64,000 nt of DNA from an uncultured Alistipes sp. (lineage in GTDB: Bacteria; Bacteroidota; Bacteroidia; Bacteroidales; Rikenellaceae): contig CANBCZ010000004.1 in NCBI GenBank assembly GCA_947367255.1, positions 1 to 64,000 on the forward strand, given 5' to 3'. The position numbers and the translations under genes were made by a program. Shown here piece after piece: positions 6,156 to 62,988 of the stretch (within the stretch, counting starts at the first letter, position 1; the number at the start of each line of letters is the position of its first letter). Below the pieces are notes generated by a model. The model worked only from the letters and a program-made list of their open reading frames with translations, had not been told where the DNA came from and ran no database searches.

Positions 6156-6268
6156 TCTTATCGTGATAACGCGGATACCTGCTTCCGCTAACAAAAAAAT
6201 CCGACAATGGCTGTACGCTCAAGTACTATCCATCGTCGGATTTTTTTTTGCCGAGCGTTGCATATTGT
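6156..6268 (+). repeat. Quasi-palindromic terminator element 1 (hairpin 6193-6249); right outer arm degenerate
   Basis: ATCCGACAATGGCTGTACGCTCAAGTACTATCCATCGTCGGAT between GATAACGCGGATACCTGCTTCCGCTAAC and GCCGAGCGTTG. Confidence 0.9.
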
Positions 6269-6363
6269 AATTTCAGAGCAAATCCTGACGCAAAAAATTA
6301 TAAAAGGGATAAATGGGAACTATCGGCGCAAAAATTGTGGTGAGAAATTATTTCTGCAAAATA

Positions 6364-7764: not shown

Positions 7765-7893
7765 CATTTGCCGTGAAAATACGGCATTAGCCGCACATCC
7801 CTAAAAGCCCGACAATGGCTGTACGTTTTAGTACTATCCATCGTCGGGCTTTTTGCGCGATGCACGCCTACTACCGTGTTTTGACGACAAATG
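7765..7893 (+). repeat. Quasi-palindromic terminator element 2 (hairpin 7803-7854)
   Basis: Outer arms 7765-7784 CATTTGCCGTGAAAATACGG / 7874-7893 CCGTGTTTTGACGACAAATG. Confidence 0.9.
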
Positions 7894-12516: not shown

Positions 12517-12642
12517 TTTTGTTGTGATAACGCGGATACCTACTTCCGCTAACAAAAAATCCGACAATGGCTGTACGTTTTAGTACTATCCATCGTCGGA
12601 TTTTTTGCCGAGCGTTGTATCTACCGCGTTCTGACAACAAAA
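12517..12642 (+). repeat. Quasi-palindromic terminator element 3 (hairpin 12554-12606)
   Basis: Outer arms 12517-12535 TTTTGTTGTGATAACGCGG / 12624-12642 CCGCGTTCTGACAACAAAA. Confidence 0.92.
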
Positions 12643-12897
12643 TGGGTGCAGATACTATTCGGAGTGCAAACTCTGACGATAAAACGGGTGCAGATACTAT
12701 TCGTAGTGCAAATTCTGACAACAAAATGGGTACAGAGATTATTCGGAGTGCAAACTCTGACAACAAAATGGGTACAGAGATTATTCGGAGTGCAAACTCT
12801 GACAACAAAATGGGTACAGAGATTATTCGGAGTGCAAACTCTGACGATAAAATGGGTGCAGATACTATTCGGAGTGCAAATTTTGACAACAAATAGG
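12630..12897 (+). repeat. 42-bp tandem array, six full units plus a partial unit (right-arm derived)
   Basis: Unit starts 12630, 12672, 12714, 12756, 12798, 12840, 12882; consensus TCTGACRAYAAAAYGGGTRCAGAKAYTATTCGKAGTGCAAAY. Confidence 0.95.
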
Positions 12898-12963
12898 TGT
12901 TGCTGTGCAGCGGCTGAAGATTGTCGATAGCAGATTTTTAATTTTTTTTACTACCTTTGTAGT

Positions 12964-15999: not shown

Positions 16000-16225
16000 C
16001 CGACGTTCTTTACATACAACAGGAAATTTCCCGCATAGATTCCTTTCGTTTTGCGAAACTGAACACTTTTTACATTGGGGCAGTCTCAATTATCAAAACC
16101 AGGCCTTGTAGCCGGAGACGGTGAGTACCGCGCGTACCGATGGAAGGTTGCGAAACCAAGCAGAACCCCACACATGACTTATTTTACAGATTCGTCATTA
16201 CCTAACAAGGAATCTCATGCGGTTT
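16000..16225 (+). ncRNA. Candidate structured RNA between zapA and rny (6S-like position)
   Basis: ~230-nt non-coding segment with TTGGGG...CCCCA and paired segments, ending AGATTC...GAATCTCATGCGG-TTTTTTT. Confidence 0.5.
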
Positions 16226-16226
16226 T

Positions 16227-16350
16227 TTTGTTGTGAAAAGGCAGCATTAGCTGCCGCTAACCTCTTTCTCGTCAATGGGTAGTACTCCAAGTACAACCCA
16301 TCGTCTCGAAAGAAGGCCGAGCGTTGCTACTACTACCTTTTGACAACAAA
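16227..16350 (+). repeat. Quasi-palindromic element 4 (hairpin 16264-16313)
   Basis: Outer arms 16227-16241 TTTGTTGTGAAAAGG / 16336-16350 CCTTTTGACAACAAA. Confidence 0.88.
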
Positions 16351-18050: not shown

Positions 18051-18257
18051 TTTTGGCGTGATAGCGGGGCACCTATCTCCGCTAACATATAAAATCAGCA
18101 AAGGGCAGTACATCCAGTACAGCCCTTCGCTGTTTTATATGCCGAGCGGAGTATCTGACCCATTGGCTCGCCTACGGCGACCCTTCACTGCTCCGCCTCA
18201 GCATAGCGTGCAAGCACACTCTGCCTTCGGCTTAATCGCAGCGTTCTGACGCCAAAA
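18051..18257 (+). repeat. Quasi-palindromic element 5 (hairpin 18086-18141) with H1/H2 module inside right arm (18164-18245)
   Basis: Outer arms 18051-18065 TTTTGGCGTGATAGC / 18241-18257 GCGTTCTGACGCCAAAA. Confidence 0.88.
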
Positions 18258-21303: not shown

Positions 21304-21309
21304 AAGTTT

Positions 21310-21400
21310 TATCGTGATAACGCGGATACCTACTTCCGATAGCTAAAAATCCCGGTAAAGGTCAGTACTAAAATGTACAGCCTTTGCCGGGATTTTTACT
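21310..21400 (+). repeat. Quasi-palindromic element 6 (hairpin 21345-21397), core inverted relative to elements 1-3, right arm lost
   Basis: ATCGTGATAACGCGGATACCTACTTCCG left arm; AAAAATCCCGGTAAAGGTCAGTACTAAAATGTACAGCCTTTGCCGGGATTTTT. Confidence 0.88.
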
Positions 21401-21451
21401 TGAGCCAAGGGCAATAGACAATAAAGAGAGTGGCAAAAAAATGCATTTTCC

Positions 21452-37769: not shown

Positions 37770-37989
37770 TTTGCCGTGAAAATACGGCATTAGCCGCACA
37801 TCTCTAAAAGTAAACCCCTTTGGGCTGTAGGTTTTACTACTATCCCAAAGGGGTCTCTTTTGCGATGCACGCCGACCGACGCCAAACCGAGAGCAGAGGC
37901 TGCTTGCAGACTATGCCGAGGTGCGAAGGAGGAAGAACCACCTTTAGGTGGGTCAGCTACCGTATTTTGACGACAAATTGGTTTTATTG
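37768..37989 (+). repeat. Quasi-palindromic element 7 (hairpin 37806-37861) with inverted H1/H2 module (37878-37968) inside right arm
   Basis: Outer arms 37768-37787 AATTTGCCGTGAAAATACGG / 37970-37989 CCGTATTTTGACGACAAATT. Confidence 0.9.
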
Positions 37990-40339: not shown

Positions 40340-42145
40340 ATGAAAAACTCGATACTGCTCCTTGCCTCGCTCTTCGACTCCTATGGAGGCTGGAGTGCCG
40401 ACCGCCAATTCTTCGATCTTATGGGCTCAACCTGCCTGCTTGCGCACGGTTTGGGCACTCCTGTTGCCGATGCTGCAACCACTTGTACCGTCGCCTCTAC
40501 GGGCAGATATAACATCTTTGTTCGCACTCGAAATTGGACAAAGTATTGGTCTACAGCCCCTACGCCGGGCATTTTTGAGGTGCTTGTCGATGGACAGAGT
40601 GTCGGCATCTTCGGTAACGAACACTCCGAGTGGCATTGGCAGCGCGGTGCGGCTGTAGAGCTTGCGGCGGGAGAACATAGGGTAGTGGTACGCGACCTTA
40701 CGGGCTTTGATGGTCGTTTTGATGCGGTGCTGATTACCCAAAACGAAAACCCTCCGAAGGATGATTTGCAGAGCTATAAGATCCTCCGTAAACAGCTGCT
40801 CTCTCTGCCGCTTACCCCAAAGAGTGCAGGGTCGTACGACTTTGTGGTTGTCGGTGGCGGTGTTGCAGGTATGTGCGCAGCCATTGCAGCAGCGCGTACA
40901 GGCTCGCGTGTGGCACTTATTCAGGATCGTGAGGTGCTGGGTGGAAATAACTCCTCCGAGATTCGTGTGGGTCTTGGTGGTAGACTCAATGTGGGACTAT
41001 ACCCGTCATTAGGCTACCTGCTCAACGAGTTTGCTCCCGTAACAAAGGGTAATGCCCGACCTGCCGAGGTCTATGAGGACGATAAAAAACTCGCAGCAAT
41101 CCTTGCGGAGCGCCGTATAACCCTCTTTATGGGCTATCGTGTGACCGAGGTGACGAAGGATGGCAACCGCCTTACAGCCGTCGTGGCTACAGATGTCATA
41201 AACCATAGCCGTATACGCGTCAAGGGTCGCCTCTTTGCCGATTGTACGGGCGATGCAACTCTTGGCGTGCTTGCAGGTGCCGAGTGGAGTATGGGTCGCG
41301 AGGCGCAGAGTAAGTATGGCGAGCAGTCGGCACCCGAGGTGGCAGATGGTATGACTATGGGCTCCTCGTTGCAGTGGTACTGCCTTGAGGATAGCGTTGA
41401 ACGACCATTTCCCGATATAGATTGGGGTCTGAAGATAGACGAGCAGAGTGTGCAGGTGGTGCGTCGTGGTCAGTGGTACTGGGAGGTCGGTATGCGTGAC
41501 GACCAGATAGCTGATGCCGAGCGTATTCGCGACTACGGTATGTATGTGGCATACTCGAATTGGGCATATCTGAAAAACCGATACTCGAAACGCGAGGATT
41601 ACGCCAACAGCTACCTCGGCTGGGTAAGCCATGTGGCAGGTAAGCGTGAGTCCCGCCGACTGATGGGCGAGTTTGTGCTGCGCGAGCAGGATCTGAAAAA
41701 TAATGTCATCTACCCCGACGGCTCGGCATCGACCTCGTGGTATATCGACCAACACTATCCCGACCCCGAGAACAGCCGCCTCTTCCCCGGTCAGGAGTAC
41801 CTCTCCTGCGGACACCTCGACCCTATGGGATTCTATCCGATACCATACCGCTGCTTCTACTCTAAGGATGTCGAAAATATGTTTATGGCAGGTCGTAATA
41901 TCTCCGTCAGCCATATCGCCCTCGGTACTGTCCGCGTTATGCGCACTACCGCAATGATGGGCGAGGTCGTAGGTCTTGCAGCTACCATCTGCCGCCGCCG
42001 CAAAGCCCTCCCTCGCGATATCTATTACACCTACCTCGAGGAGCTCAAATCTATGATGCGTAAAGGTGTCGGCAGAACGGATGTGCCTTATACCCAGATA
42101 TATACCTTGATTGACACCACCGCAGCTCGTAGCGAAGACTGCTAA
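40340..42145 (+). CDS. FAD-dependent oxidoreductase with N-terminal carbohydrate-binding/golvesin-like domain
   Basis: YDFVVVGGGVAGMCAAIAAARTGSRVALIQDREVLGGNNSSEIRVG plus N-terminal beta-sandwich-like region. Confidence 0.85.
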   Translation: MKNSILLLASLFDSYGGWSADRQFFDLMGSTCLLAHGLGTPVADAATTCTVASTGRYNIFVRTRNWTKYWSTAPTPGIFEVLVDGQSVGIFGNEHSEWHWQRGAAVELAAGEHRVVVRDLTGFDGRFDAVLITQNENPPKDDLQSYKILRKQLLSLPLTPKSAGSYDFVVVGGGVAGMCAAIAAARTGSRVALIQDREVLGGNNSSEIRVGLGGRLNVGLYPSLGYLLNEFAPVTKGNARPAEVYEDDKKLAAILAERRITLFMGYRVTEVTKDGNRLTAVVATDVINHSRIRVKGRLFADCTGDATLGVLAGAEWSMGREAQSKYGEQSAPEVADGMTMGSSLQWYCLEDSVERPFPDIDWGLKIDEQSVQVVRRGQWYWEVGMRDDQIADAERIRDYGMYVAYSNWAYLKNRYSKREDYANSYLGWVSHVAGKRESRRLMGEFVLREQDLKNNVIYPDGSASTSWYIDQHYPDPENSRLFPGQEYLSCGHLDPMGFYPIPYRCFYSKDVENMFMAGRNISVSHIALGTVRVMRTTAMMGEVVGLAATICRRRKALPRDIYYTYLEELKSMMRKGVGRTDVPYTQIYTLIDTTAARSEDC

Positions 42146-42270
42146 TTTAGCGTGAAAACGGGGCACCTATCTCCGCTAACATATAAAATCAGCAAAGGAC
42201 AGTACACTTCAGTACAGCCCTTCGCTGTTTTATATGCCGAGCGGAGTATCTGCCCTGTTTTGACGCTAAA
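42146..42270 (+). repeat. Quasi-palindromic element 8 (hairpin 42180-42236), the most complete copy
   Basis: Outer arms 42146-42165 TTTAGCGTGAAAACGGGGCA / 42251-42270 TGCCCTGTTTTGACGCTAAA. Confidence 0.93.
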
Positions 42271-42314
42271 TTAGTGCGAGGAAGTGGCGGAGTGCAAACT
42301 TTGATATTTCACGA

Positions 42315-42428
42315 TGCACACCGACCGACGCCAAACCGAGAGCAGAGGCTGCTTGCAGACTATGCCGAGGTGCGAAGGAGGAAGAACCACCTTTAGGTGG
42401 GTCAGCTACCGCATTTTGACGACAAATG
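42315..42428 (-). repeat. Inverted H1/H2 module plus right arm, near-identical to 37866-37982
   Basis: CCGACCGACGCCAAACCGAGAGCAGAGGCTGCTTGCAGACTATGCCGAGGTGCGAAGGAGGAAGAACCACCTTTAGGTGGGTCAGCTACCG shared. Confidence 0.9.
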
Positions 42429-49689: not shown

Positions 49690-49869
49690 TTTATCGTGGC
49701 ATTTGCCGTGAAAAGCACGCATCTGCGGCATATCCCTTAAAAATTAGTGTCGGCTGTACGTTTTGTACTATCCGATACTGATTTTTTTCACGATATACCG
49801 CACCTACGCACTTTTGACGACAAATGGGTGCAAAGAGGTAGCGGAGTGCAAACTTTGACGAATAAATTA
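49687..49869 (+). repeat. Quasi-palindromic element 10 (hairpin 49739-49788), apparently nested inside a second arm pair
   Basis: Inner arms 49701-49718 ATTTGCCGTGAAAAGCAC / 49808-49825 GCACTTTTGACGACAAAT; outer TAATTTATCGTG / TGACGAATAAATTA. Confidence 0.8.
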
Positions 49870-57615: not shown

Positions 57616-57741
57616 TTTTATCGTGATAGTGGCGCATTTGCGGCACATCCCTTAAAAACCAACGGCGGCTGTACGTTTTAGTACTATCCGCCGTTGCTTT
57701 TTTGCACGATGCACCGCAACTACACCACTCTGACGATAAAA
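57616..57741 (+). repeat. Quasi-palindromic element 11 (hairpin 57654-57703)
   Basis: Outer arms 57616-57632 TTTTATCGTGATAGTGG / 57725-57741 CCACTCTGACGATAAAA. Confidence 0.92.
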
Positions 57742-62356: not shown

Positions 62357-62817
62357 TGATTCGTCTGACAAAAGAGTTCTCGTTTGAGTCTGCTCACGCC
62401 TTGTGGGGCTATGACGGTAAGTGCCGTGAGGTTCACGGACACTCTTACCACCTCTTTGTCACCATCAAGGGTGAGCCGATAGCAGACGAAAATGACCCGA
62501 AGCTGGGAATGGTTATGGACTTCGGCGAACTCAAGAGCATCGTCGCCCGTGAGATTACCGATCGCCTCGACCACTCCTTCGTTATGCGTCGTACACCCGA
62601 GGCAGAGGCACTCGCAGCCACTATGGAGAGCAAGTTTACCAATGTAATACTCGTAGACTACCAACCTACCTGCGAGAATATGCTCGCCGACTTCGCCGAG
62701 CGCCTTATGAAGGCACTTCCGGAGCGTGTGCAATTGTATTCGTTGCGACTGCATGAGACTGCTACTTCATACGCAGAATGGTTTTATCGTGATAACGCGG
62801 ATACCTGCTGCCGCTAA
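62356..62817 (+). CDS. queD: 6-carboxy-/6-pyruvoyl-tetrahydropterin synthase (QueD family)
   Basis: FSFESAHAL, CREVHGHSYHLFVTIKGE, VMDFGELKSIV, LDHSFV; C-terminal residues encoded by element 12. Confidence 0.92.
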   Translation: MIRLTKEFSFESAHALWGYDGKCREVHGHSYHLFVTIKGEPIADENDPKLGMVMDFGELKSIVAREITDRLDHSFVMRRTPEAEALAATMESKFTNVILVDYQPTCENMLADFAERLMKALPERVQLYSLRLHETATSYAEWFYRDNADTCCR

Positions 62818-62988
62818 CCCGATTTTCAACAATGGGCAGTACTCTCAGTACAGCCCATCGATGAAAATCGTGTCGAGCGTTAATCCTCCTTCGGAGTCTT
62901 TTCGCTGCTTCGTCTCAGCAATTCAAACAAGTTTGATTGCATTCGACTTAATCGCAGCGTTGTATCTACCGCATTCTGACGATAAAAC
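62781..62988 (+). repeat. Quasi-palindromic element 12 (hairpin 62819-62870) with H1/H2 module (62883-62961) inside right arm
   Basis: Outer arms 62781-62800 GTTTTATCGTGATAACGCGG / 62969-62988 CCGCATTCTGACGATAAAAC. Confidence 0.92.

Follow-up and report, generated by a model that had tools for sequence, protein, structure and literature searches.

The stretch of DNA analysed here (64,000 nt from an uncultured Alistipes sp., referred to below as the window) contains a 125-nt palindrome placed directly against the end of a gene, which raises the question of what this sequence is and how it came to lie there. The preliminary description of the locus had presented it as one near-perfect palindrome (42146–42270, + strand) beginning at the base right after the upstream stop codon (TAA, 42143–42145), with a left outer arm at 42146–42165 and a right outer arm at 42251–42270 that pair with two mismatches in 20. 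These coordinates, the contact with the stop codon and the number of mismatches are all correct. One of the mismatches is a conserved G.G; the other is a G opposite a T, which is a wobble pair at the RNA level. A repeat finder extended the outer pairing to 42142–42165/42251–42274 (24 nt, 92% complementary), and RNA folding returned a single uninterrupted nested hairpin spanning 42141–42275, with a free energy of −73.3 kcal/mol. The mean for 200 dinucleotide shuffles was −29.1±3.7 kcal/mol (z=−12), and none of the 200 was as stable. It is apparent that a long stem does join the outer arms to the central hairpin, as had been anticipated; one continuous hairpin is formed, but 'near-perfect' is slightly generous, given the small internal loops, several of which are conserved in the family described below.

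Within the outer arms lie a left inner arm, CTCCGCTAAC (42171–42180), and a right inner arm, GCCGAGCGGAG (42236–42246), which make up an inner shell designated type A. These enclose a central hairpin (42180–42236), a candidate intrinsic terminator, the tip of which reads GTAC (42202–42205), six bases, GTAC (42212–42215) and is followed by a T-rich tract at 42228–42235. All of these features are on the + strand.

A blast search of the exemplar against its own genome (2.07 Mb, Rikenellaceae; designated G000) returned 34 matches. Eighteen full copies were aligned and the resulting model was used for a genome-wide search, which gave 136 matches. Some of these were the same palindromes read on the opposite strand, and approximately 98 distinct copies remained once they had been removed (a number to be read as at least 98, 150 of 827 candidates having been scored). 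The analyses that follow used the DNA around these elements together with sampled contig stretches. Full copies are 123–128 nt in length and share the ends TTTNNYGTGA (left) and TGACRNNAAA (right), represented in the exemplar by the motifs TTTNNYGTGA[A/T]A and T[T/C]TGACRNNAAA of its outer arms. Two kinds of inner shell were observed, type A (CCGCTAAC/GCCGAGCGG) and type B (ATCCCT/ACGATGCAC), and these are found together with outer arms of many types and with several different central hairpins. Of 101 genomes sampled from the genus, 50 contained the family; it was missing from all 16 that represent other families of the order. No Rfam family was matched by the element at either gathering or permissive thresholds, and no match to it was obtained in phage and plasmid collections. 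The exemplar is one copy of an interspersed, genus-specific mobile family.

Further copies are situated in the window, all on the + strand. Those at 6157–6282 (after TAG), 18052–18175 (after TAA, with its right arm replaced) and 57617–57740 (type B, after TAG) have an offset of +1 from the stop codon. The type B copy at 7767–7891 lies 2 nt after the TAG of a glutamate dehydrogenase-like gene and is followed by 5′-truncated copies to approximately 8230. A degenerate copy (21308–21425) has an offset of +4 after TAG, and a weak or degenerate one (37770–37886) is immediately 3′ of a stop codon. The copy at 12518–12641 leads into a tandem array, and that at 49702–49824 (type B) is nested behind a left-end remnant. 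In the copy at 62783–62881 the right arm is damaged, and the upstream ORF runs into the element and stops at the TAA of the copy itself. The copy at 16227–16350 has no same-strand ORF upstream and follows a conserved intergenic stretch. That stretch (approximately 16100–16226) is conserved in the related genome G045 (L258, approximately 81% over the aligned upstream part) and looks like an unannotated structured RNA, with no Rfam match at E≤1.

Evidence that the family is mobile comes from identical copies and from orthologous sites. Three genomes (G041, G011 and G080) each contain two or three identical 125-nt copies, extending exactly from TTT to AAA, at different loci with different flanks. 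The mobile unit is taken to be exactly this TTT…AAA sequence of approximately 125 bp. The two extra outer base pairs probably originate from the insertion site and not from the element, as the different flanks of identical copies suggest. In relatives with approximately 85% DNA identity to the window genome in a dehydrogenase gene, orthologous genes with the same C-terminus were found with the element absent, present, or replaced by another subtype at the same place. The exemplar gene ends at the same residue in G003, G044, G045 and G006; it ends in ARSEDC in the window genome, G003 and G045, and among these three only the window genome has the element. At syntenic sites, the native terminator is often still visible downstream. 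As to whether the element provides the final bases of the stop codon, a possibility that was dropped, the codon had changed in nine of 19 ortholog pairs with the element in the window genome only, and in 19 of 62 element-free pairs. A vertically inherited ordinary intrinsic terminator, or a structured 3′ UTR, without mobility would supply a hairpin and U-tract 3′ of a stop codon, as seen here, but is scarcely credible in view of near-identical copies that are dispersed, of identical ones shared by unrelated loci, and of orthologs with and without the element.

The insertion point itself is frequently palindromic. Of 86 copies, 61 have palindromic flanks of the form NN^NN, where 16.5 would be expected, and GT^AC, AT^AT, AA^TT or CA^TG account for 58 of these; in the exemplar the flank is AA^TT, the AA (42144–42145) overlapping the stop codon and the TT lying at 42271–42272. 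No excess of 3–9-nt direct repeats was detected at the flanks. A 2-nt excess (18 vs 5.2) was found, which arises because AT^AT flanks are palindromic. These observations bear on the possibility that the family is a MITE of a yet-unseen DDE-type insertion sequence, with selection having purged copies elsewhere and so produced the contact with stop codons and the strand bias described below. Like a MITE, the element is short and noncoding, with paired ends and 98 dispersed copies; its constant length, the conservation of its end motifs and the near-identity of copies fit that explanation too. Against it, there is no target duplication beyond the 2-bp excess from the AT^AT flanks, and the sampled stretches yielded no relative with these ends that carries genes.

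The arms of the element differ from copy to copy and yet match their own partners. Compensatory changes affect 16 of the 36 consensus pairs of the type A alignment and 22 of the 43 of type B. In a model-free control, left halves folded with their own right halves had a mean free energy of −54.7 kcal/mol, compared with −36.3 kcal/mol for arm-swapped chimeras; 15 or more outer pairs were kept in 76 of 83 real copies as opposed to 64 of 300 chimeras. The conserved feature of the family is thus structure rather than sequence, and the arms co-vary where a MITE would be expected to have fixed terminal repeats. The G.G mismatch (CGTGA/TGACG) is present in most copies and makes the palindrome polar. 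At three loci (L009, 208–302; L018, 1501–1570; L029, 1501–1570) the outer arms are swapped for an unrelated, still palindromic pair (such as AAAATCGATTTTAAGG/CCTTAAAATCGATTTT). Inner shells seem able to exchange outer shells.

The position of the element relative to genes is highly restricted. Of 88 copies, 45 have an offset of 0 or +1 from the stop codon, and the others fall mostly between −13 and +8, negative values meaning that the element supplies the stop itself. The same peak was seen in two other species, G003 and G045 (27 of 42 copies). Stop codons are abutted by the left end in 78 of 93 cases and by the right end in three of 37. One copy abuts the 3′-end of a tRNA-Arg gene, an element being present at this site in G003 and absent from it in G045. 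In the window, 10 of 33 transcription-unit-like gene ends carry an element. Its frequency is higher between convergent genes (40 of 59 vs 90 of 222), and a similar enrichment has been reported for pneumococcal repeats (PMC3049150), which is a further point in favour of a MITE.

A second restriction concerns the strand of the chromosome. The majority strand of each contig holds 95 of the 98 copies in the window genome, where the stretches were picked around elements. All copies in the sampled contigs of G003 and G045 (C40 of the former and C24 and C2 of the latter being contiguous runs) are on one strand, as are nearly all of those in the long contigs of G056, some stretches of which were also picked around elements. 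Where the GC skew was at least 0.02, a measure that partly reflects gene direction, 154 copies were on the G-rich strand and seven on the other. Transcription-unit-like gene ends carried an abutting element in sense orientation at 85 of 292 sites on the G-rich strand and at four of 230 on the other strand; none of these 292 and 230 ends carried an antisense element. The rpsL gene, normally a leading-strand gene, is on the element strand wherever both were found on one contig (G000 C2, G056 C1 and G045 C14). From GC skew and the direction of rpsL, rather than from a mapped origin, we infer that the G-rich element strand is the leading strand.

This asymmetry (85 of 292 vs 4 of 230) is not readily attributed to selection and, with the preceding observations, leaves the MITE of a DDE-type insertion sequence rather unlikely. 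The near-absolute strand polarity within contigs, and the conserved mismatches that give the palindrome its polarity, would also be compatible with a polar motif of the Chi or KOPS kind that organises the chromosome or avoids conflicts and is selected on the leading strand for replication or repair. There would be no need for such a motif to touch a stop codon or the end of a tRNA; the element is lacking in about half of the genus, and subtypes turn over between close species. This explanation was considered improbable.

The preliminary description had also raised the idea of transcription termination. In 75 of 98 copies a central hairpin of ΔG≤−10 is followed by a tract with U at four or more of eight positions, as in an intrinsic terminator, and this terminator-like hairpin begins at a median distance of 40 nt from the left end. 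Published measurements show that a terminator only a few nucleotides from the stop codon is repressed by the ribosome, and that efficiency becomes full at distances greater than approximately 27 nt (PMC4824070). The element is probably a portable transcription stop signal. The persistence of native terminators downstream was counted against this reading, as was the presence of a good U-tract on the opposite strand in only 41 of 98 copies. At two element sites the arrangement in a relative is tight: that at C33:12729 corresponds to a 24-nt operon gap and that at C5:100008 to directly abutting genes, which would be odd places for a strong terminator. The terminator idea remains plausible for the central hairpin. 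In the event of termination there, the right arm would be left untranscribed, so that the palindrome as a whole would be better explained at the level of DNA or mobility, and the conserved outer pairing would point to folded DNA.

Candidate mobilising enzymes were also sought. REP/BIME and IS200/IS605-type elements, which are moved by Y1 (HUH) transposases, are palindromic, polar and biased with respect to replication strand, and make no target duplication, all of which would suit the family described here. However, the Y1 domain (Y1_Tnp, PF01797) was found in none of 31 genomes of the genus, whereas five of 14 control genomes gave a match. A REP/RAYT identity was rejected on this basis and on that of the unit, which is approximately 125 nt with the ends TTTNNYGTGA and TGACRNNAAA, as opposed to 20–40 nt (PMC3733652) with GTAG or CGTC; movement by a Y1 transposase is accordingly very improbable. 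A transposase ORF between end motifs was also sought: none that was convincing, and no autonomous parent, was present in approximately 1.2 Mb of sampled stretches.

Integron attC sites recombine as folded single strands. Like the element, they are structure-defined hairpins that follow a stop codon and have conserved mismatches conferring polarity, and structurally conserved arms with such mismatches are indeed present here. An attC identity was rejected nonetheless, as the integron integrase (TIGR02249) was above cut-off in none of 61 genomes; the element is, moreover, without a cassette array and has ends unlike the attC core site. A group II intron or intron-type retroelement was likewise rejected, since the group II maturase (TIGR04416) was above cut-off in only one of the 61 genomes (G023), itself element-free, and no Rfam match was obtained.

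The surroundings of intact copies provide additional data. Downstream of them are fragments in the same orientation (40 right-only, nine left-only, nine full and eight internal), and upstream there are almost none, except for tandem full copies. The right-end fragments indicate either that new copies land gene-proximally and truncate old ones or that copying is often 5′-incomplete. The latter would accord with insertion at the level of RNA or an R-loop, on a ribosome-free nascent transcript or the adjacent exposed DNA, past the stop codon or a folded tRNA; the fragments, 40 right-only against nine left-only, would in that case be failed reverse transcripts. Such a process would also give sense orientation and abutment, as seen in the abutting elements, all of which are sense, and it would account for the abutted tRNA end. 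New copies landing on old ones could equally cause the truncation, however, transcription alone does not explain the near-absence of elements at lagging-strand gene ends, and the only genome among 61 with an intron-type reverse transcriptase above the family cut-off is element-free. This route is judged about as doubtful as the MITE.

Several arrangements of repeats were noted in addition. Left-end remnants (TTTATCGTGGCA or similar) lie directly 5′ of an intact copy at 49690–49702 in the window and at C4:107373 and C1:36089 elsewhere in G000, which suggests that these copies entered the left arm of an element already in place. Full-length elements in direct tandem, with a near-constant 8-nt spacer (TTAGGTTC, TTAGGCTC), were found at L300 (G060:C36:2925–3182) and at G000 C22:21295–21682. 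The array at 12588–12923 consists of tandem 42-nt units, each with a copy of the right-end motif (TCTGACNNNAAA) and a GGGTGCA…GAGTGCAAA tail. Downstream of the exemplar, a string of other short repeats (42273–42427, + strand) ends in copies of the right-end motif (TTTGACGACAAA at 42415–42426). This string includes a second interspersed repeat (CGACGCCAAACCGAGAGCAGAGGCTGC…) of 121 nt, which is located at 42307–42427 and again at 37858–37978 (97% identical) and sits among element fragments.

Taken together, these data favour, with a probability of roughly 60%, a non-autonomous, genus-specific palindromic element (MITE-like or REP-like) that carries a candidate intrinsic terminator and moves as folded single-stranded DNA at gene ends codirectional with replication. 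The dispersal, mobility, polarity, strand restriction and nested co-varying arms of the family are computational observations. Insertion of a folded single strand is suggested because it fits the strand polarity, the lack of duplication, the conservation of structure and the mismatches that give polarity; a second requirement, set by transcription (for example, an R-loop), is suggested because it fits the sense orientation against a stop codon or tRNA end. The unit of approximately 125 bp would insert, usually at a palindromic NN^NN and with no evident target duplication, flush with the 3′-end of a gene codirectional with replication and in the sense orientation of that gene. It would move as a DNA hairpin, the single strand being offered by the lagging-strand template, by the coding strand exposed in R-loops, or by both; such R-loops may start where ribosomes leave and translation ends, and genes codirectional with replication would satisfy both the replication and the transcription conditions. 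Once in place, the central hairpin and U-rich tract would end transcription of the upstream gene, with the left arm serving as a spacer of approximately 40 nt that might hold the hairpin clear of the terminating ribosome.

If this is correct, many gene ends in one bacterial genus have been re-terminated by a mobile hairpin, and the family would offer many natural before/after pairs of gene ends, as well as a search target for a recombinase. Since the elements are confined both to the ends of genes and to the leading strand, one can test whether insertion sites are created jointly by the ends of transcription and by replication forks. It is possible, at odds well short of even, that the family represents a new class of mobile DNA, namely replication-coupled, structure-recognised single-stranded hairpins that bring their own terminator to leading-strand gene 3′-ends, the points at which the translated or mature RNA stops, and depend on an enzyme belonging to none of the Y1, integron and group II families.

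No earlier description in Alistipes or Rikenellaceae was found in the open-access literature searched. The element works like ERIC, YPAL and SPRITE repeats, but no account was found there of its sequence, of its exact contact with gene ends, of its two-fold polarity or of its nested shells of co-varying arms, and there is a moderate chance that the mechanism is new. Ribosome termination structures, which are stable mRNA structures just past the stop codon (PMC7518266), and intrinsic terminators, with their hairpin and U-tract, resemble the element in form, although they are per-gene features and not members of a mobile repeat family. REP, BIME and REPIN sequences with RAYT (Y1) enzymes are likewise palindromic, extragenic, 3′ of genes and non-autonomous, but REP units are only 20–40 nt (PMC3733652) and Y1 enzymes were not found in the 31 genomes of this genus. 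The pneumococcal SPRITE elements are interspersed repeats resembling Rho-independent terminators, located near gene 3′-ends and enriched between convergent genes (PMC3049150). Their hairpin is much simpler, exact abutment to the stop codon was not found described for them, and approximately 63% are on the leading strand (PMC3049150), as against 154 of 161 for the element studied here. Closest in length are ERIC (127 bp, enterobacterial) and YPAL (approximately 168 bp, Yersinia), which are also palindromic, intergenic and dispersed, with no known transposase of their own. ERICs at gene 3′-ends change mRNA levels (PMC10969869), and YPAL sequences are reported to be expressed together with upstream genes and to make target duplications (PMC2229807), none of which are evident for the present element. 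In contrast to both, the left end here touches stop codons, orientation is tied to the gene and to the replication strand, and the arms co-vary in nested shells.
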